In this document: positions 42,120 through 50,298 of the stretch, piece after piece
Position numbering within the stretch: the stretch's first letter is position 1
Layout: the number at the start of each line of letters is the position of its first letter
NCBI RefSeq assembly: GCF_900103715.1
Contig: NZ_FNHL01000002.1
Location: forward strand, 186,001-250,000
Origin: Halogranum gelatinilyticum
Lineage (GTDB): Archaea > Halobacteriota > Halobacteria > Halobacteriales > Haloferacaceae
Reading direction: 5' to 3'
DNA: 64,000 nt
Translations under genes and position numbers: made by a program
Notes under the pieces: generated by a model
Seen by the model: only the letters and a program-made list of their open reading frames with translations
What the model was told of the DNA's origin: nothing
Databases searched by the model: none

Positions 42120-42686
42120 TCACTCGGCGTCTGCGTCGTCACCCGTCCCGTCGTCCGCCTCGGCGGGACCGACCGACTCGCTCGGCCCAAGCTCCAGCGG
42201 CGTCGGGACGGGTTCGAGCCGGGCCTCGACCGACGCCGTCGCCTGCAACTCCCGGCCGTACCGACGCTCCTCGGTGAGTTCGTAGGTCCCTGCCCGGAGA
42301 CCGTAGGCCCGTCCCTCCTCCTCCCGTTCTGTCTCTGTCTCCTCCGTCACCGTCAGATCCAGTTCGAGGCCGATGGTGGCTTCGCTGAACTGGTAGCTCG
42401 TCGGCGTGAAGCCCAGTTCGAGCAGCGACCGCGGCTCGCTCGTCGTGGTCGTCGTCACGGTGCCGTCCTCGCCGACTTCCCGAGCGACCCGTGTCGGAAC
42501 CTCGACGTCCGCCTCGGCGAGCGTCTGCAACACCTCGGCGGTGTTGCGGTCGAGTTTCGCCTGCGCCTCGGCGACGCTCTCGGCGACGAGGTACAGCAGG
42601 TCCCCGAAGGGAGCGTCGCGCTGGTCGCGCCGCGAGGTGGACGTCACGAGGCCGCGTTTCTGCAGGTCCCGTGGGCTGAACGGCAT
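42120..42686 (-). CDS. Cluster paralogue C, YQFSEATI family
   Basis: A 188-residue protein of unknown function, last in the cluster. It shares with its two neighbours a helix with AEAQAKLDRN (about residue 40), the motif PTSYQFSEATIGLELDL (about residue 95), a charged middle (YGLRAGTYELTEERRYGREL) and the ending ARLEPVPTPLEL before an acidic tail. The alternate hydrophobic pattern suggests two beta-strand groups. The order and motif remind me of DUF2589-type proteins, which I cannot confirm. It starts directly after paralogue B. Confidence 0.8.
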   Translation of the reverse strand: MPFSPRDLQKRGLVTSTSRRDQRDAPFGDLLYLVAESVAEAQAKLDRNTAEVLQTLAEADVEVPTRVAREVGEDGTVTTTTTSEPRSLLELGFTPTSYQFSEATIGLELDLTVTEETETEREEEGRAYGLRAGTYELTEERRYGRELQATASVEARLEPVPTPLELGPSESVGPAEADDGTGDDADAE

Positions 42687-43253
42687 CTAGCTCGACCCAC
42701 CGCCACCGCCGCCACCACCGCCGTTCTGCGGCGGCGTCCGGTTGTCGACGGTCTCGATCTCCGGCACCATCAGCTCCGGCGGCGTGACCGGCACGAGCGT
42801 CGTCTTCATCTTGCTGGTGCCTTCGACGGTCTTGCCGAACTTCCGATTGTGTTCGAAGTCCGCCTGCACGCTGCCGGAGTAGACACCCCAGTTGACCGAG
42901 TGCTCGGTCTCGACGCCGAAGGAGGTCTCCGTCTCCAGTTTCGTCTTGATGTCCATCGAGACCTCGATGGTGGCCTCGCTGAACTGGTAGAACGTCGGCG
43001 TCAGCCCCACGTGGAGCAGCGACATCTCGATGGGGTCGGGTTGGTTGAACTCGACGCCGTCGTCGGTGATGACGCGTGTGATGGCGGGATAGACGTCGAT
43101 GGTCTCCTCGGCCAACTCGACGGCCGTCTCGACGGAGTTCTCGTCGAGCGCGTTCTGTGCCTTCGCGATACCCATCGCCAACTCCTCGACCATCCGCGGC
43201 AACGGCACGTCGAGCAGTTGTTGTCCGACCGACTGATTGTTACTTGTTGACAT
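42687..43253 (-). CDS. Cluster paralogue B, YQFSEATI family with poly-glycine tail
   Basis: A 188-residue protein. It has the helix IAKAQNALDEN, the motif PTFYQFSEATIEVSMDIK, the Trp/Tyr-rich middle HSVNWGVYSGSVQADFEHN and the ending TTLVPVTPPEL, followed by a run of nine glycines and SS. The helix before (VETAVELAEETIDVYPAITR) is longer than in C. It has its own TATA-like promoter 37 bases upstream, and its stop abuts the start of C. Confidence 0.82.
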   Translation of the reverse strand: MSTSNNQSVGQQLLDVPLPRMVEELAMGIAKAQNALDENSVETAVELAEETIDVYPAITRVITDDGVEFNQPDPIEMSLLHVGLTPTFYQFSEATIEVSMDIKTKLETETSFGVETEHSVNWGVYSGSVQADFEHNRKFGKTVEGTSKMKTTLVPVTPPELMVPEIETVDNRTPPQNGGGGGGGGGSS

Positions 43254-43285
43254 AGCGCACCAAACGAATACTCCACGAATCAGGA

Positions 43286-43294
43286 CATAAATAC
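43286..43294 (-). promoter_or_regulatory. Promoter of the B-C pair in the cluster
   Basis: GTATTTATG on the minus strand is centred 37 bases before the ATG at 43253, giving a leader of about ten bases. The B-C pair can thus be expressed apart from the rest of the cluster. Confidence 0.55.
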
Positions 43295-43332
43295 AGTCTG
43301 TTTCACGGATAAACGGGGTGGAAGTTGCTGAC

Positions 43333-43653
43333 TCACTCGGGCGGCGTGAGTGCCTGTCGGAGCCGCTCGATGTCGACGTTGACACCGCCGACGTGGCTGA
43401 CGTACGGCTCGCCGCGCAGCGTCTCGGCGCGGCCGAACGTCGTGTGGACGACGAACAGCCCGTCGGGATGGCCGAGCAGAAGCCTGTCGACGCCGCCCAC
43501 CGCCGAGAGAAGCCACGTCCGAAACGCCTCGTGGTCGGCCTCGGGATGGCGTTTGACGAGGAAGAATCCGGCGTCGTCCGGCGGCGGTCGTGCGACGTCG
43601 ACCGTGGCACCGAAGCGGTCGCCGACGTCGCCGAGACTCTCGTCACCCGCCAC
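43333..43653 (-). CDS. Cluster 106-residue orphan
   Basis: A 106-residue protein from a GTG start; an in-frame stop lies two codons upstream, so this is the longest possible form. The core (GFFLVKRHPEADHEAFRTW, then DRLLLGHPDGLFVVHTTFG and the ending VGGVNVDIERLRQAL) predicts a small alpha/beta ferredoxin-like fold. It sits 60 bases after the coiled-coil/PASTA gene and is in the same direction. No family recognised; its conservation should be tested to be sure it is a gene. Confidence 0.65.
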   Translation of the reverse strand: MAGDESLGDVGDRFGATVDVARPPPDDAGFFLVKRHPEADHEAFRTWLLSAVGGVDRLLLGHPDGLFVVHTTFGRAETLRGEPYVSHVGGVNVDIERLRQALTPPE

Positions 43654-43713
43654 GTCTCACCACCGCCTGTCGCCGCTCGGCAGTGGTCACTCTGCACTGA
43701 CTCTCGGCGGTGG

Positions 43714-44760
43714 TCACTGCTTGTCGCCTCCGCCGGGGTCGCCCGCGAGCAACTGCGCGGCGTGGTCGAGCCAGTGGCCGGCGCGCTCTTCGGACGCACC
43801 GGTCAACGTCGCGAGTCGCTCGACGTCGGCGGAGGCGACGTCGCCGACCGTCTCGATACCCCCTTCGCGGAGCCGACCGCCGAAGGTCGGCCCGATGTCG
43901 AGGACGTCCTCCACCGGCCGGGCGGCGGCCGCCTCGTCGACAGTCTCGCCGTGGCCGTCGTCCGTCTCCACTCTGTCGCCGTCGTCGCCGCGGTGGCTGT
44001 GCCTCTCCTCCGCCGACTCGTCCGTCGACTCCTCTTCGGCGGGGACTTCGACGGTCAACTCGACGACTTCGCCGGGTTCGGCCACCGCTCGACTCGACGG
44101 GAACTGGTCGACGACGACGCCCGCGTCGGCCGTGGCGTCGACCGCGAATCCGGCCTGTCGGAGGAGTGCCGTCGCCTCGGCCACCTCGCGGCCGACGACC
44201 GAGGGGACGCGCTGGTAGTCGAGTTCGGGTGCGGCCGTCTGGGGTTTGACGCCGAAGCGGATGGTCGACAGCGACTCCGCGCGGACCGTCTCGGAGACGC
44301 CCGGGAGGTGAAACCGCACGCCGTTGTCGGTGTTGACCACGCCGGCCTTCAGGTCGACCTGGACGTCGGCGACGCCGTAGCCCGCCGAGCCGAGGTCCGC
44401 CTCCACGTCGTCCAGTGCCTTCCCGAAGTTTCCGAGCAGGTCCCGCGCTTCGAGGTCGACGCGGCTCTTACGCGCGTCGGCGAGCTGGTCGACCAACTCG
44501 GCGTTGCGCGACTCCAGCGTCGACACCGTCGCCTGCAACTCCGAGCGGTTCGTCTCGGCGGTGACGACGCGGTGTTGGAGCGTGGCGATGCGTTGCTCGC
44601 GGGCGACGAGTGCGGACTCCAGTTCGGTCACCTCCGTCGAGGAGAGTTTCGAGAGGTCGACCTCCACCTCGTCGGCGAGATTCAGGTCGACGGTGAAGTC
44701 GACTGCCTCGTATTTCGCGGGATCGAAGCGGTTCGGGTCGAAGCCGCCGCCACCACTCAT
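43714..44760 (-). CDS. Cluster coiled-coil + PASTA + helix-hairpin-helix protein
   Basis: A 348-residue protein with a rare domain set. Residues about 40-110 are a long coiled coil (ELESALVAREQRIATLQHRV). Then comes a beta segment (DVQVDLKAGVVNTDNGVRF), similar in style to the YQFSEATI proteins. Residues about 178-235 form a PASTA-like domain (RVPSVVGREVAEATALLRQA, closing in VVELTVEVP). After an acidic linker, the C-terminal 55 residues are a helix-hairpin-helix pair (DVLDIGPTFGGRLREGGIET). It overlaps paralogue A by four bases. PASTA domains are unusual in archaea. Function unknown. Confidence 0.85.
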   Translation of the reverse strand: MSGGGGFDPNRFDPAKYEAVDFTVDLNLADEVEVDLSKLSSTEVTELESALVAREQRIATLQHRVVTAETNRSELQATVSTLESRNAELVDQLADARKSRVDLEARDLLGNFGKALDDVEADLGSAGYGVADVQVDLKAGVVNTDNGVRFHLPGVSETVRAESLSTIRFGVKPQTAAPELDYQRVPSVVGREVAEATALLRQAGFAVDATADAGVVVDQFPSSRAVAEPGEVVELTVEVPAEEESTDESAEERHSHRGDDGDRVETDDGHGETVDEAAAARPVEDVLDIGPTFGGRLREGGIETVGDVASADVERLATLTGASEERAGHWLDHAAQLLAGDPGGGDKQ

Positions 44761-45131
44761 GGCTCCCGTGTCTCCGGTCGGTCGGCGGGGACCGGGACGA
44801 GCCGCGCGCGGACCGAACTCGTCAACTCGGTGTCGACCGCCTCCCGCTGGCGGTCCTTCGCGTCGACGGGCGCGGCGGCGACGAACGGCCGGAAGCCCTT
44901 CCGCTTCCCGTCGCGCTCCTCGGGGCGGGCCGCGAGCGACAGTTCGAGTTGCACGTCGAGGTCGACCTCGGCGAAGCGGTACGACGTCGGCGGCGGCGTC
45001 CCGTTCTGTGCTGCTTCACGCGCGGCGTCGGCGACTGCGCGGTCCAGTTCTGCCTGCCCGTCGGCGACGGCCGTCGCGAGGTCACGCACTACGTCTGCGA
45101 GGGGCCGTGTCCGCCACTGTTCGACTGACAT
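44757..45131 (-). CDS. Cluster paralogue A, short YQFSEATI-type protein
   Basis: A 124-residue shorter relative of B and C. It keeps the helix (LATAVADGQAELDRAV), a variant of the core motif (PPPTSYRFAEVDLDVQLEL) and the closing VRARLVPVPA. The middle is shorter and basic (DGKRKGFRPF). It overlaps the coiled-coil/PASTA gene by four bases, so the two proteins are probably made together and may interact. Confidence 0.8.
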   Translation of the reverse strand: MSVEQWRTRPLADVVRDLATAVADGQAELDRAVADAAREAAQNGTPPPTSYRFAEVDLDVQLELSLAARPEERDGKRKGFRPFVAAAPVDAKDRQREAVDTELTSSVRARLVPVPADRPETREP

Positions 45132-45155
45132 ATAGTGTGGTATCGTCTGCCATGG

Positions 45156-45164
45156 TATAAATAT
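45156..45164 (-). promoter_or_regulatory. Promoter of cluster paralogue A
   Basis: ATATTTATA on the minus strand is a strong TATA-like box, centred 29 bases before the ATG at 45131, so the mRNA is predicted to be nearly leaderless. It is one of three promoters in the cluster. Confidence 0.6.
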
Positions 45165-45212
45165 CTCTGTGGCGAGAAAAATCGGAGCGGTGACAGACGG
45201 TCGTGAGCTGGC

Positions 45213-45491
45213 CTATGCCACTGTGCGGTCGGGAGTACCGCTGTCGGCGACGGTGACGGGCGTCCGTACGACCGACTGCGCCCGTCGCCCGTTGACGACG
45301 ACCTCCGCGACGTGGACCGTCGCCTCGATTTCGTCGCCCGGACGGAGGTCGAGGCGGGCCGCGGTCTGTGCCATCAACACCGTCGTGTACGGCTCTCCGT
45401 CGGGTCCGTCGAGGACGACGTGGACTTGGCCACCGCGATGCGTTACTGACCGGACGATGCCTCTCAGTCGATTGCCTGGCGTGGGGGACAT
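45213..45491 (-). CDS. Small OB/TOBE-like protein at the head of the cluster
   Basis: A 92-residue protein that is almost all beta-strand: RLRGIVRSVTHRGGQVHVVL, then TTVLMAQTAARLDLRPGDEI and EATVHVAEVVVNGRR. The pattern resembles the TOBE fold of molybdate-binding proteins, or another small OB fold, but I see no ligand motif. It precedes paralogue A by 80 bases in the same direction and has its own weak box (CTTATTC, 45517-45523). Confidence 0.7.
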   Translation of the reverse strand: MSPTPGNRLRGIVRSVTHRGGQVHVVLDGPDGEPYTTVLMAQTAARLDLRPGDEIEATVHVAEVVVNGRRAQSVVRTPVTVADSGTPDRTVA

Positions 45492-45588: not shown

Positions 45589-46068
45589 TTAGTGGTCTTC
45601 GTCTTCGTAGACCCAGACGGCGTTCGTCTGGTCCCAGTCGACGAGTTCCTCGTCGTCGAAGAACAGCTCGATCTCGCGCTCGTTTGCGCCCTCGTCAGCG
45701 TGATCCGAACCGTGGATGACGTTCTGACCGAGGTCGAGACCGAAGTCACCGCGGATGGTACCGGGTGCGGATTCGGCGGGGTCCGTCTCGCCCATCATCT
45801 GGCGGACCTGACGGGTCGCGTCAGCTCCCTCCCAGACCATCGCGAAGACCGGACCGGACGTGATGAAGTCGACGAGACCGTCGAAGAACGGCTTGCCCTC
45901 GTGCTCGCCGTAGTGCTCGTGGGCGAGCTCCTCGTCGATCTGCATGAACTTGCCGCCGACCATCTTGAGACCGCGGTCCTCGAAGCGAGAGACGATCTCG
46001 CCGATGAGGCCGCGCTGGACGCCGTCGGGCTTGACCATCACGAACGTGCGCTCGTCGTGGTGGCTCAT
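45589..46068 (-). CDS. ndk: Nucleoside diphosphate kinase
   Basis: A 159-residue Ndk. It swaps phosphate between NTPs and NDPs through a histidine intermediate (motif [13 protein letters not shown] near residue 122). Other signatures are [13 protein letters not shown] at the N terminus and [17 protein letters not shown]. Its start overlaps the rpl24e stop by four bases, which also rejects the longer form starting at 46092. Confidence 0.97.
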
Positions 46069-46244
46069 TGACGGCTCCCTTCCTCGGTCCATTCGAGGTC
46101 GCGCGCTTCGCGACCGAGGTCGGCGTTCTTCTCACACTTCGAGGAGCAGAAGTGGATGACTGTCCCGTCGGTACGGACGAACATCGTGCCCGTGCCGGGC
46201 TCGATGTCCGCGCCGCAGTAGTCGCAGTCACGGTTCTGTGGCAT
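46065..46244 (-). CDS. rpl24e: 50S ribosomal protein L24e
   Basis: A 59-residue zinc ribosomal protein (start [19 protein letters not shown], end EWTEEGSRQ). The zinc ligands are C7-x2-C10 and C33-x3-C37 (CSSKC). It overlaps ndk by four bases (ATGA) and lies three bases after the rps28e stop. Read directly from the minus strand. Confidence 0.95.
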
Positions 46245-46247
46245 GGT

Positions 46248-46472
46248 TTACTGCCCTCCGATGGAGTCGGCGTCGCGCTGGGTCTCGCGCAGCTGGAGGA
46301 TGTCGCCCTCCCGCACGGGACCGAGCACGTTCCGCGTGATGATGCGGCCCTGGTTCGAGCCCTCGCGGATGCGGCACTTGACCTGCATGGCCTCGCCGTG
46401 CATCCCTGTCTTGCCAACGACCTCGATGACCTCGGCGGACGTCGAGTCGCTGGCGGTCTCTTCTGCGCTCAT
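46248..46472 (-). CDS. rps28e: 30S ribosomal protein S28e
   Basis: A 74-residue S28e, an OB-fold protein at the mRNA exit. Typical segments: [20 protein letters not shown] and [20 protein letters not shown]. An acidic N-terminal extension of about ten residues is usual in haloarchaea. It lies between rpl7ae (6 bases) and rpl24e. Confidence 0.96.
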
Positions 46473-46478
46473 GGATGC

Positions 46479-46841
46479 TTACTGCAGGTCCTCGAGCTTA
46501 CCGGCGATGTCCTCGACGTCCTCCGAGGCTTCGCCAGCGTCGACGATGGCCGCGGCGGCACTGCCGACTTCGAGACCGGACGCGTGACCGATGTCGTCCT
46601 GGGTCTCGACGTAGATGAACGAGATGCCCTTCTCCTCACAGAGTTCGGGAAGGTGCATCACGATCTCTTCCGGCGAGACGTCCTCGGCGATGAAGACGAG
46701 GTCGGCGTTGCCGCGCTCGACGGCTTTCGTCGTCTCGTTGGTTCCTTTCTTTACACTACCTGTGTCTCGGGCGACCTCGAGCGCCTCGACGGCGCGTTCC
46801 TGAAGGTCGGCTGGGACTTCGAAATTGACGTAAACTGGCAT
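46479..46841 (-). CDS. rpl7ae: 50S ribosomal protein L7Ae
   Basis: A 120-residue L7Ae ([20 protein letters not shown] start; [21 protein letters not shown]). Besides the ribosome, archaeal L7Ae binds kink-turns in C/D and H/ACA guide RNAs and in RNase P. It is first in the L7Ae-S28e-L24e-Ndk operon. A good Shine-Dalgarno (GGAGAGGTGA) lies just upstream. Confidence 0.97.
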
Positions 46842-46990: not shown

Positions 46991-47346
46991 TTCAAAGCAA
47001 CCCCGGCGTGAGAGTCTGCGACACGGCGACGAGCATTCACACGCGGGTCTGCTCTCGGTCGCCCCCGACGGCGAGCTGATGGCCGCCTCGGACGACGGTT
47101 CCTCCCGCGCCAACGCGGTCGTGCTCAGCGTCGTCGACACCGCGAGTCACGGCTCATCACACCACACACCATGACACGTGTGAACTGTTCAAACGGCCAG
47201 TTCCTCGCCGATTGACGCTTTTGAATTGGACAGTAATGAACAGAGATGCACATTCGGCGTAATTTTCACGATTGTGTCGGAGAATCGGAGTCGGGATTCG
47301 TGAGGCTTTTCCGCGCTATCGGACAACGGGCGAACCAGACACACAC
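46991..47346. other. Intergenic region before the first NSS transporter
   Basis: About 350 bases with no gene I can support. A 31-codon frame (47079-47174) opens from a longer open stretch with halophile-like codons (starting near 47001), so it may be a decayed gene end. T-rich segments at 47215-47225 and about 47300-47310 could hold the promoter of the transporter. Confidence 0.4.
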
Positions 47347-48678
47347 ATGAGTGAACGAGAAACGTGGGCAACGAGGGCAGGATTCATCCTCGCGGCCGTC
47401 GGCAGTGCCGTCGGTCTCGGGAACATCTGGCAGTTCCCGTTCAAGACCGCACAGTTCGGGGGGGCGTCGTTCCTCCTCGTCTATCTGATCGCCGCGCTCG
47501 GCATCGGCATCCCCGCGATGCTCGCCGAGTTCGTCATCGGCCGGAAGACGAACCTGAACACCATCGACGCCTTCGAGAAACTCGGCTACCGCAACTGGCG
47601 TATCGTCGGCGCAATCGGGCTGGCGACGGGCTTCTGGATTCTGTCGTACTACAGCGTCGTCGGCGGCTGGGTGCTGCGCTACATCGGCGGCAGCATCACC
47701 GGCGCGTACTTCAGTGACCCGGCGGCCTACTTCGGGCAGGTTTCGGCCGGTCCGGAAGCACTCGCGCTCCACGCGGTCTTCATGGCACTCGTCGTCGGCA
47801 TCGTCGCCCTCGGTATCGAGGACGGCATTGAGAAGGCGACGAAGCTGATGGTGCCGAGCGTCGTCGTCATGCTCGTCGGTCTCGCGGCCTTCGCGTTCAC
47901 CCTGCCGGGTGCGAGCGAGGGCTACGCGTACTTCCTCTCGCCGGACTTCGGCGCGCTCGCCGCCAACTTCACCGAAATCGTCCCCTTCGCCGTCGGCCAG
48001 GCGTTTTTCTCGCTCTCGCTCGGCATGGGCGCGATGATCACCTACGCCTCCTACATCGACGGCGACGAGAGCCTGTTCGCCGACAGCGTCACCATCGTCG
48101 TGCTGAACTCCTTCGTCGGCATCCTCGCCGGTCTCGTCGTCCTGCCGCTGCTCTTCGCACAGGGTATCGACCCGAACACCAGCGGTGCCGGTGCGGTCTT
48201 CGTCAGCGTCGCCACGGCGTTCGCGGAGCTTCCGGCCGGGCAGGTCCTCGGCTTCGTCTTCTTCGTCGTCGTGCTCATCGCCGCGCTGTCGAGTGCGATC
48301 AGCCTCCTCGAAGTGGTCGTCTCGTGGGCCGTCGACAACACGTCTTACAGCCGTCCCGTCATCGCGACGGGACTCGGCGGCGTCATCTTCGCGCTCGGCA
48401 TCCCCTCGGCGTGGGACACCGCCTGGCTGACGTGGTTCGACAACCTCGCGTACCAGCTGCTGCTGCCCCTCTCCGTGCTCGGCATCCTCGTCTTCGCCGG
48501 TTGGGTCTTCGGCCGCCCGGCACTCGGGGAACTGCTGAAGGGCAGCGACTTCGGTGACGGCGTCGGCCTGACGTGGCTCTGGACGGCCCGGACGGTCGTC
48601 ATCGTCGCCGTCGTCGGCACGCTGCTGCTCGGTCTCCAGACGCTGTTCGTCGGTGGGGCCATCGTGCCGCCGCTCTGA
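47347..48678 (+). CDS. NSS-family sodium-dependent transporter 1
   Basis: A 443-residue, 12-helix transporter of the neurotransmitter:sodium symporter family. The N terminus is AGFILAAVGSAVGLGNIWQF with the unwound TM1. In most members the last residues are NIWRFP; here arginine is replaced by glutamine, and the next segment is KTAQFGGASF instead of the common ENGG. It carries an amino acid or a related solute with Na+, which is abundant in brine. A homologous transporter follows it. Confidence 0.9.
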   Translation: MSERETWATRAGFILAAVGSAVGLGNIWQFPFKTAQFGGASFLLVYLIAALGIGIPAMLAEFVIGRKTNLNTIDAFEKLGYRNWRIVGAIGLATGFWILSYYSVVGGWVLRYIGGSITGAYFSDPAAYFGQVSAGPEALALHAVFMALVVGIVALGIEDGIEKATKLMVPSVVVMLVGLAAFAFTLPGASEGYAYFLSPDFGALAANFTEIVPFAVGQAFFSLSLGMGAMITYASYIDGDESLFADSVTIVVLNSFVGILAGLVVLPLLFAQGIDPNTSGAGAVFVSVATAFAELPAGQVLGFVFFVVVLIAALSSAISLLEVVVSWAVDNTSYSRPVIATGLGGVIFALGIPSAWDTAWLTWFDNLAYQLLLPLSVLGILVFAGWVFGRPALGELLKGSDFGDGVGLTWLWTARTVVIVAVVGTLLLGLQTLFVGGAIVPPL

Positions 48679-48861
48679 GCACGCGAGCGACTCCGAACGT
48701 CTCTCACAGTTGAGAGGTTACGAATCGTCACCGAACAGCCGACTTTTGTGGAAGTTCGTTTCGTTAGACGGCCGTCCGAACGTCGGAAAACCGTTATCAT
48801 GGGAATTTGACGGTTCCACGACTCGAAACCCACTTTAAGCAGAATAGGCCAATGCATGACA

Positions 48862-50298
48862 ATGACACGAGAAACGTGGGCAACGAGGATGGGGTTCATC
48901 CTCGCGGCCGTCGGCAGCGCCGTCGGTCTCGGGAACATCTGGCGGTTCCCGTGGGTGACAGCGGAGAACGGAGGCAGTGCCTTTCTGCTCGTCTATCTGG
49001 CAATCGTCCTGCTCGTCGGGGTTCCCGGCATCCTCGGGGAGTTCGTCATCGGCCGTCGCTCCGGCCGCAACCCGGTCGGCGCGCTCCGTGAACTCTCGGG
49101 GTCGCGTGCGTGGGGAATCGTCGGGATGTTCAGCGTCGTCACCGGCGTCATCCTGCTCTCGTTTTACAGCGTCGTCGGCGGCTGGATTCTGCGCTACTTC
49201 GTCGAGAGCGCGGTCGCGCTCGGCACGGCGGGACCAGCACCCTACTTCACCGACCCCGGCCCGTACTACGACAGCCTCGCGTTCACGACGGAGGCCGTCG
49301 CCTACCACGTCGGCTTTCTCGCGCTGACCGGTCTCATCGTCTTCGCGGGCGTCCGCAGGGGCATCGAGGTCGGGACGAAAGTGATGATGCCCGCCATCCT
49401 CCTGCTCCTCGTCGGGCTTGCCGTCTGGGCCTCCCAGCAGCCGAACGCGGCCGCGGGCTACGCCTTCTATCTCAGTTTCGACCTCGCGACGCTGCGGGCG
49501 AACTTCTTCGACGTCCTCGGTCCCGCCGCGGGACAGGCACTGTTCACCCTCTCGCTCGGCGCGGGCACGATGATCACCTACTCCTCGTATCTCGGTGACG
49601 ACCGCTCGCTGCCGTTCGACGCGACGACCATCGCCGTGCTCAACACCTTCGTCGGCGTGCTTGCTGGCTTGGTCGTCTTCCCGCTGCTGTTCTCGGTCGT
49701 CGGCGAGGCCGGCGGCAGCGGTCCCGGCGCGCTCTTCGTCAGTATCGCCGGCGCGTTCGCCCGCCTCCCCGCCGGGACGCTCATCGCGACGGCCTTCTTC
49801 GGCGTCGTGACGCTCGCCGCGCTCTCCTCGTCGATCTCGATGTTGGAGATTCCCGTCTCCTTCCTCGTCGACGAGTTCGACCTCTCGCGACGCGTCGCCG
49901 TCCTCGGGATGTTCGGTGTCGTCACCGTCACGGGCGCGGTCAACGCGCTGCAGGCGTCGCTCTTCAGCTTCGTCGCCGGCCCGCTCGTCGACTCGCTGCT
50001 CACGGCCGGACTTATCGCCTTCCTGCTGTTCGTCGGTTGGGTGCTCGGCGTCGACGCGCTCGACGAGTTCGTGAAGGGCGGTGGCTCGCTCACGGAGTCG
50101 CTGAGCACGCCGTGGCTCTTCGCGGTCGGCGTCGTCATCCCGCTCTTTCTCGTCTTCACGCTCCTGTCGAGTCTCGGCTTCGGCGGGCTGGCCGCGTCCG
50201 TCGTCCCGGTTTCGGGCTTCTGGCTGACGCTCGCGGCGACCGTCGTCGTGACCCTCGCGGCCTTCCTCGGCCTGCGCGGGTCGCGCTCGCTGGTCTGA
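48862..50298 (+). CDS. NSS-family sodium-dependent transporter 2
   Basis: A 478-residue NSS transporter. TM1 is normal: GSAVGLGNIWRFPWVTAENG, with arginine and ENGG. It shares a nearly identical first 20 residues with transporter 1 but diverges later (shorter loops, extra C-terminal helix). A box CTTTAAG (48833-48839) 27 bases upstream supports the ATG at 48862; an ATG at 48856 would add two residues. The tandem pair looks like an old duplication. Confidence 0.9.
   Translation: MTRETWATRMGFILAAVGSAVGLGNIWRFPWVTAENGGSAFLLVYLAIVLLVGVPGILGEFVIGRRSGRNPVGALRELSGSRAWGIVGMFSVVTGVILLSFYSVVGGWILRYFVESAVALGTAGPAPYFTDPGPYYDSLAFTTEAVAYHVGFLALTGLIVFAGVRRGIEVGTKVMMPAILLLLVGLAVWASQQPNAAAGYAFYLSFDLATLRANFFDVLGPAAGQALFTLSLGAGTMITYSSYLGDDRSLPFDATTIAVLNTFVGVLAGLVVFPLLFSVVGEAGGSGPGALFVSIAGAFARLPAGTLIATAFFGVVTLAALSSSISMLEIPVSFLVDEFDLSRRVAVLGMFGVVTVTGAVNALQASLFSFVAGPLVDSLLTAGLIAFLLFVGWVLGVDALDEFVKGGGSLTESLSTPWLFAVGVVIPLFLVFTLLSSLGFGGLAASVVPVSGFWLTLAATVVVTLAAFLGLRGSRSLV

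Follow-up and report, generated by a model that had tools for sequence, protein, structure and literature searches.

Introduction

The nearest described counterparts of the locus analyzed here are protein families known by name, and we found no functional study of DUF2589 or Trypco2 in the open-access papers searched. DUF2589 (PF11655) genes occur as tandem paralogue pairs, the haloarchaeal pairs having a third gene after them, and a DUF2589-related set of four genes in Archaeoglobus fulgidus, AF0414-AF0417, is up-regulated on lactate (PMC3949148). Trypco2 (PF19631, trypsin-co-occurring domain 2) owes its name to the trypsin-like peptidases alongside which it occurs in VMAP conflict systems (PMC7159879); it has also been termed an adapter domain (PMC10907252). 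A third point of comparison is provided by PASTA proteins (PF03793), such as the Stk1/PknB kinases.

The window studied here is a stretch of 64,000 nucleotides from Halogranum gelatinilyticum (contig NZ_FNHL01000002.1) with a GC content of ~66%, and its genes and their relatives are of haloarchaeal type. An initial annotation of this DNA had proposed an undescribed multi-gene set containing three paralogous proteins, and our analysis supports this proposal in the form of a five-gene cassette: no description of the gene system was found in the libraries and open-access papers searched, and the families related to it are known by name.

Results

All six open reading frames of the initial annotation were recovered on the minus strand, in the transcription order TOBE-domain protein (92 amino acids [aa]; positions 45213 to 45491), protein A (124 aa; 44757 to 45131), coiled-coil protein (CC; 348 aa; 43714 to 44760), an orphan protein with a GTG start (106 aa; 43333 to 43653), protein B (188 aa; 42687 to 43253), and protein C (188 aa; 42120 to 42686). 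The tight junctions reported for this cluster are also present, with a 4-base overlap between A and CC (44757 to 44760) and a zero-base gap between B and C (42687/42686); the remaining intergenic gaps are 60, 79, and 81 bases. By inspection against the promoter consensus, a TATTTATA box lies ~30 bases 5' of the A start codon (ATG) and TATTTATG lies ~38 bases 5' of the B start, and no comparable box was seen within 60 bases 5' of CC, the orphan, or C. The placement of these boxes suggests that there are likely two transcripts, A-CC-orphan and B-C, and A probably heads a leaderless transcript.

The TOBE-domain protein matches its domain above the Pfam cutoff (E = 4e-7), but no homologue of its gene is present in any of 18 related loci compared (0 of 18), and we rejected it as a sixth member for this reason. 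The gene is also preceded by its own TATA-like sequence, and we therefore regard the cluster as consisting of five genes rather than six, such that the six-gene cluster originally proposed holds for A, CC, the orphan, B, and C, and not for the neighboring TOBE gene. The cassette is adjoined in the window by ribosomal L7Ae/S28e/L24e-like and nucleoside diphosphate kinase-like genes, named from their sequences (45589 to 46841), and the cassette's neighbors vary among genomes. Further along, two adjacent genes (47272 to 48678 and 48856 to 50298) encode similar multispan transporters that by eye appear to be sodium-dependent symporter-like.

The five genes constitute a conserved cassette whose members are homologous, linked, and colinear and have been inherited or transferred together within the Halobacteriota and into a few Pseudomonadota. 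B was matched in 18 of 292 genomes of the class Halobacteria, distributed over 7 of 77 genera, and in haloarchaeal genomes it is always found beside A, CC, and the orphan. Seventeen haloarchaeal loci in addition to the window carry the core B-A-CC-orphan on one strand. Twelve of these have all five genes, in the order B-C-A-CC-orphan at 11 loci and in the window's order of A-CC-orphan-B-C at one (L032), while the other five lack C and have four genes, in which one copy of B precedes A, CC, and an orphan-like gene. The B proteins of four-gene loci (L044 to L048 and L112 to L121) carry a Gly-rich hydrophobic insertion approximately in the middle of the hairpin (e.g., GGLAGLLFGK and GGGGGVGLNLGFFSIGG). 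In a set of 194 genomes, strong matches to A (E < 1e-40) and the orphan (E < 1e-13) were found in exactly the 10 genomes with B, at the cassette; the probability that two such 10-genome sets coincide by chance is ~6e-17, a figure that ignores relatedness among genomes.

Beyond the window's order, a B/C profile recovered another 16 genomes from within the phylum, several of them from one genus. B-A-CC is encoded on one strand in all 11 of the loci from other Halobacteriota that were read, with the orphan following CC in 8 of these. Automatic clustering of the surrounding genes was swamped by shadow ORFs, and among the families listed the most widespread were the cassette genes and their shadow ORFs. 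The patchy distribution of the cassette among genomes indicates that it is not generally essential. At one locus (L114, 8550 to 12524), a 1,324-residue coiled-coil protein is encoded beside the cassette and matches the CC profile near one end, and it may represent an enlarged paralogue of the tether.

Two bacterial loci extend this pattern. A plasmid of Sphaerotilus sulfidivorans, the one plasmid record in which the cassette was found, carries orphan-B-C-A'-CC as five consecutive genes annotated as hypothetical proteins, where A' is only weakly A-like and hardly recognizable, and a gammaproteobacterial MAG carries orphan-B-C-CC at a locus where A was not found. Sampling of the MAG's phylum gave a match in 1 of 398 genomes, and sampling of its class gave matches in 2 of 274, with the MAG included in each count, indicating that the cassette is rare in these groups. 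Linkage of at least four of the six genes in distant haloarchaea or bacteria, the observation named at the outset as support for a functional set, was thus found with five genes. Homologues unlinked to the coiled-coil gene, which would have spoken against it, did not emerge apart from a divergent B/C-like pair on a short, 3.5-kb contig (L122). On this contig, from the gammaproteobacterial genome G1032, an HhH-like gene is followed by the two B/C-like genes, encoding 341 and 305 residues (155 to 2710), possibly a further variant. We also considered a viral or phage origin and rejected it, given that no phage record and, for two pattern sets, no IMG/VR relative was found, and PHROGs yielded weak matches alone.

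The three paralogues were originally linked by a shared helix, motif, and ending, and these features are present in all three proteins: an A-x-x-Q-x-x-L-D helix (A-D-G-Q-A-E-L-D in A), a Y-x-F-(S/A)-E motif, and a P-V-P type ending. Pairwise searches with phmmer gave significant matches of B to C (2.9e-19) and of A to C (1.2e-9), and comparison of the family profiles with hhalign linked A to B (P = 1.6e-19), A to C (P = 5.4e-16), and B to C (P = 2e-35), while controls with reversed sequences gave P values of at least 0.03. With similarity well beyond chance, A, B, and C are judged to be true paralogues. In a phylogenetic tree, A stands apart from B and C, and C branches as the product of a duplication of B within the five-gene lineage; one C-like sequence (from L111) is divergent, with a long branch and an uncertain position. 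The bacterial B and C sequences are nested among archaeal ones, which suggests that the cassette has been transferred between archaea and bacteria. B is the best-conserved component, with a mean identity of 72% among haloarchaea (C, 53%; A, 50%; orphan, 49%; CC, 41%) and of 55 to 57% to its bacterial homologues.

The resemblance of these proteins to DUF2589, suggested in the initial annotation, is confirmed by profile-profile comparison, which recognizes B (P = 8.9e-9 to 1.5e-8) and C (P = 2.9e-5) as remote relatives of this family (reversed controls, 0.012 to 0.17). The relationship lies below the level of Pfam assignment: A, B, and C have no match to PF11655 at E <= 1 and fall below its curated cutoff of 23 bits, and none of 17 B/C members matched at E <= 10. 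DUF2589 resembles B and C in its N-terminal helix and motif region and in the arrangement of its genes in tandem pairs. Its proteins differ in their ending, with an MPEG-type C-terminal motif ("MPEGLxR") in most of the aligned DUF2589 sequences that is absent from A, B, and C, which have a P-x-P-x-P ending instead, and the DUF2589 loci that we read, unlike the cassette, showed no coiled-coil/PASTA gene. Haloarchaeal DUF2589 clusters (L070, 8300 to 10749; L072, 7983 to 10894) nonetheless have a layout that parallels the cassette, in which a pair of DUF2589 genes is accompanied by a third, helix-hairpin-like gene and by one encoding a protein of 108 to 110 residues; the third gene of the L072 cluster has HhH-like repeats by eye. 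The genomes with DUF2589 and those with the B cassette did not overlap among 59 genomes searched (3 each).

A second relationship connects the cassette to Trypco2, in which, as predicted for A and the hairpin region of CC, a helix is followed by strands. Profile-profile comparison identifies A (P = 5.6e-6 and 7.2e-5) and the CC hairpin (P = 1.4e-4 and 1.6e-5) as remote relatives of Trypco2 (reversed controls, 0.027 to 0.27). A scores 14.5 bits against PF19631, below the Pfam cutoff of 24.2 bits, which the CC hairpin does not reach either, and Trypco2 is also the Pfam family that matches the most B/C members, albeit in only 3 of 17 cases and below threshold (best E = 0.0035). The CC hairpin had no direct match to A or B (P = 0.005 to 0.14). 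The genomic settings differ as well, since Trypco2 is a single adaptor gene with a trypsin-like peptidase neighbor, whereas the cassette is a multigene set; an ORF for such a peptidase was found near none of 32 cassette loci, compared to 6 of 6 Trypco2 control loci. When DUF2589 and Trypco2 are compared directly, there is barely any match (P = 0.04 to 0.06), which makes A, B, and C intermediates that connect the two, and we infer that both families are unified through them.

Two further domains claimed for CC exceed their Pfam cutoffs, namely, PASTA (1.6e-7; residues 184 to 238) and HhH (HHH_5, 5e-8; residues 284 to 334). They follow a coiled coil at approximately residues 41 to 125 and the hairpin region at approximately residues 128 to 173. 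There is one PASTA domain in the window's CC and two in some relatives; in contrast to the PASTA kinases, CC has neither a kinase domain nor a membrane span, and its PASTA domain is joined to a putatively cytosolic coiled coil. Archaea lack peptidoglycan. The orphan is a conserved accessory gene of the cassette that matched no known family in Pfam and PDB searches. Its sequence pattern had suggested an inhibitor similar to subtilisin propeptides (Inhibitor_I9-like), but neither single sequences nor profiles matched I9 (PF05922) in Pfam or PDB, and we rejected this assignment.

No solved structure related by sequence was found. An AlphaFold2 model of B built from five input sequences has a helix (residues 18 to 49) and two long strands (residues 88 to 121 and 124 to 156), with low confidence (mean pLDDT, 56; pTM, 0.34), and the model of CC has a confident coiled coil (pLDDT of ~85 to 93 for residues 41 to 90) followed by a low-confidence hairpin. 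Foldseek matches of the B model (best E = 0.006) were discarded as meaningless beyond the description "long hairpin." No component has a predicted membrane span, with a maximum 19-residue mean hydropathy of 1.04 in the window and below 1.5 in relatives, and every component appears to be a soluble, cytosolic protein. B, C, and CC of the window are strongly acidic.

Discussion

Because the five genes travel as a fixed set, their products are probably parts of one molecular assembly, and we give about even chances to the reading that the cassette encodes a single cytosolic hetero-oligomeric complex. In such a complex A, B, and C would be helix-plus-hairpin proteins, of which B, together with its duplicate C, would form the core by packing long amphipathic hairpins side by side; the slower evolution of B (72% identity compared to 41 to 53% for the other components) fits a core that packs against itself. 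A would connect this core to the hairpin that follows the coiled coil. The coiled coil itself may serve as a spacer of variable length, the PASTA and HhH modules could provide docking to a protein or DNA target in the cell, and the orphan would be a small accessory subunit.

Several other explanations compete with such an assembly. That the genes are a chance run of unrelated frames could be argued from their small size, their lack of Pfam names, and the GC-rich genome, but the survey refutes this idea almost beyond doubt, given that co-occurrence and colinearity of the genes are perfect across archaeal genera and in two bacteria and that the open frames are conserved at 35 to 72% identity. 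That A and the CC hairpin resemble Trypco2 in profile comparisons (P = 5.6e-6 to 1.4e-4) instead raises the idea of a conflict (defense) or signaling adaptor module, in which A, B, and C would couple a sensor to an effector as Trypco2 does in VMAP and related systems and CC would be the scaffold. A patchy distribution, transfer into bacteria, and carriage on a plasmid in one case are all in keeping with this; however, the peptidases that accompany every Trypco2 control locus are missing from the cassette loci, PADLOC models are matched weakly and by CC alone (E = 0.006 and 0.02), the flanking genes in the loci read are variable and mostly ordinary metabolic or ribosomal genes, and the cassette is absent from phage records and, for two pattern sets, from viral contigs. 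We thus consider an adaptor role unlikely.

Readings that assign a direct physical target to the hairpin proteins appear less probable still. A membrane-acting or pore-like assembly, into which the tip of B's long amphipathic hairpin would insert, is suggested by the position of the least charged, Gly/aromatic-rich 12-mer, which in each of the 19 B proteins is located close to mid-hairpin (relative position, 0.55; standard deviation, 0.06, among sequences that are related), and the weak B model gave its top Foldseek hits to hairpins from beta-barrel pore proteins. Taken singly, though, these 12-mers are unremarkable (shuffle P mostly >0.1), the TM-scores of 0.16 to 0.20 come from a low-confidence model (pLDDT, 56) and could be obtained with any long hairpin, no clear tip is evident in A or C, and neither a signal peptide nor a known secretion route is present, leaving this reading distinctly improbable. 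We rate similarly low, or a shade lower, a DNA- or nucleoid-associated complex in which HhH would bind DNA and the hairpin proteins would polymerize along or around it. The HHH_5 domain of the window's CC was matched in 8 of 8 haloarchaeal homologues scanned, HhH-like segments were noted by eye in a haloarchaeal DUF2589 cluster and beside the divergent gammaproteobacterial B/C pair, and orphans of the methanogen type have a basic tail; yet HhH was seen neither in bacterial CC proteins (by eye) nor in the one CC scanned from Halobacteriota outside the haloarchaea, HhH domains function in protein contacts as well, and the window's B, C, and CC are acidic, as is usual in haloarchaea.

Returning to the hetero-oligomeric assembly, a broader and somewhat less assured proposal is that the cassette specifies a hitherto undescribed archaeal protein machine or filament built of paralogous helix-hairpin subunits and a coiled-coil tether, whose subunits belong to a superfamily joining DUF2589 and Trypco2 and which may have moved as a unit to bacteria. 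A fixed set of five (or four) genes that stays linked in Halobacteria, in other Halobacteriota, and in a few bacteria, but to which no function has been assigned, is a strong candidate for a cellular assembly not described before. Because it is small and soluble and occurs in archaeal lineages for which laboratory genetics is available, it can be tested by deletion and tagging. Since A, B, and C bridge DUF2589 and Trypco2, solving B would bear on both families.
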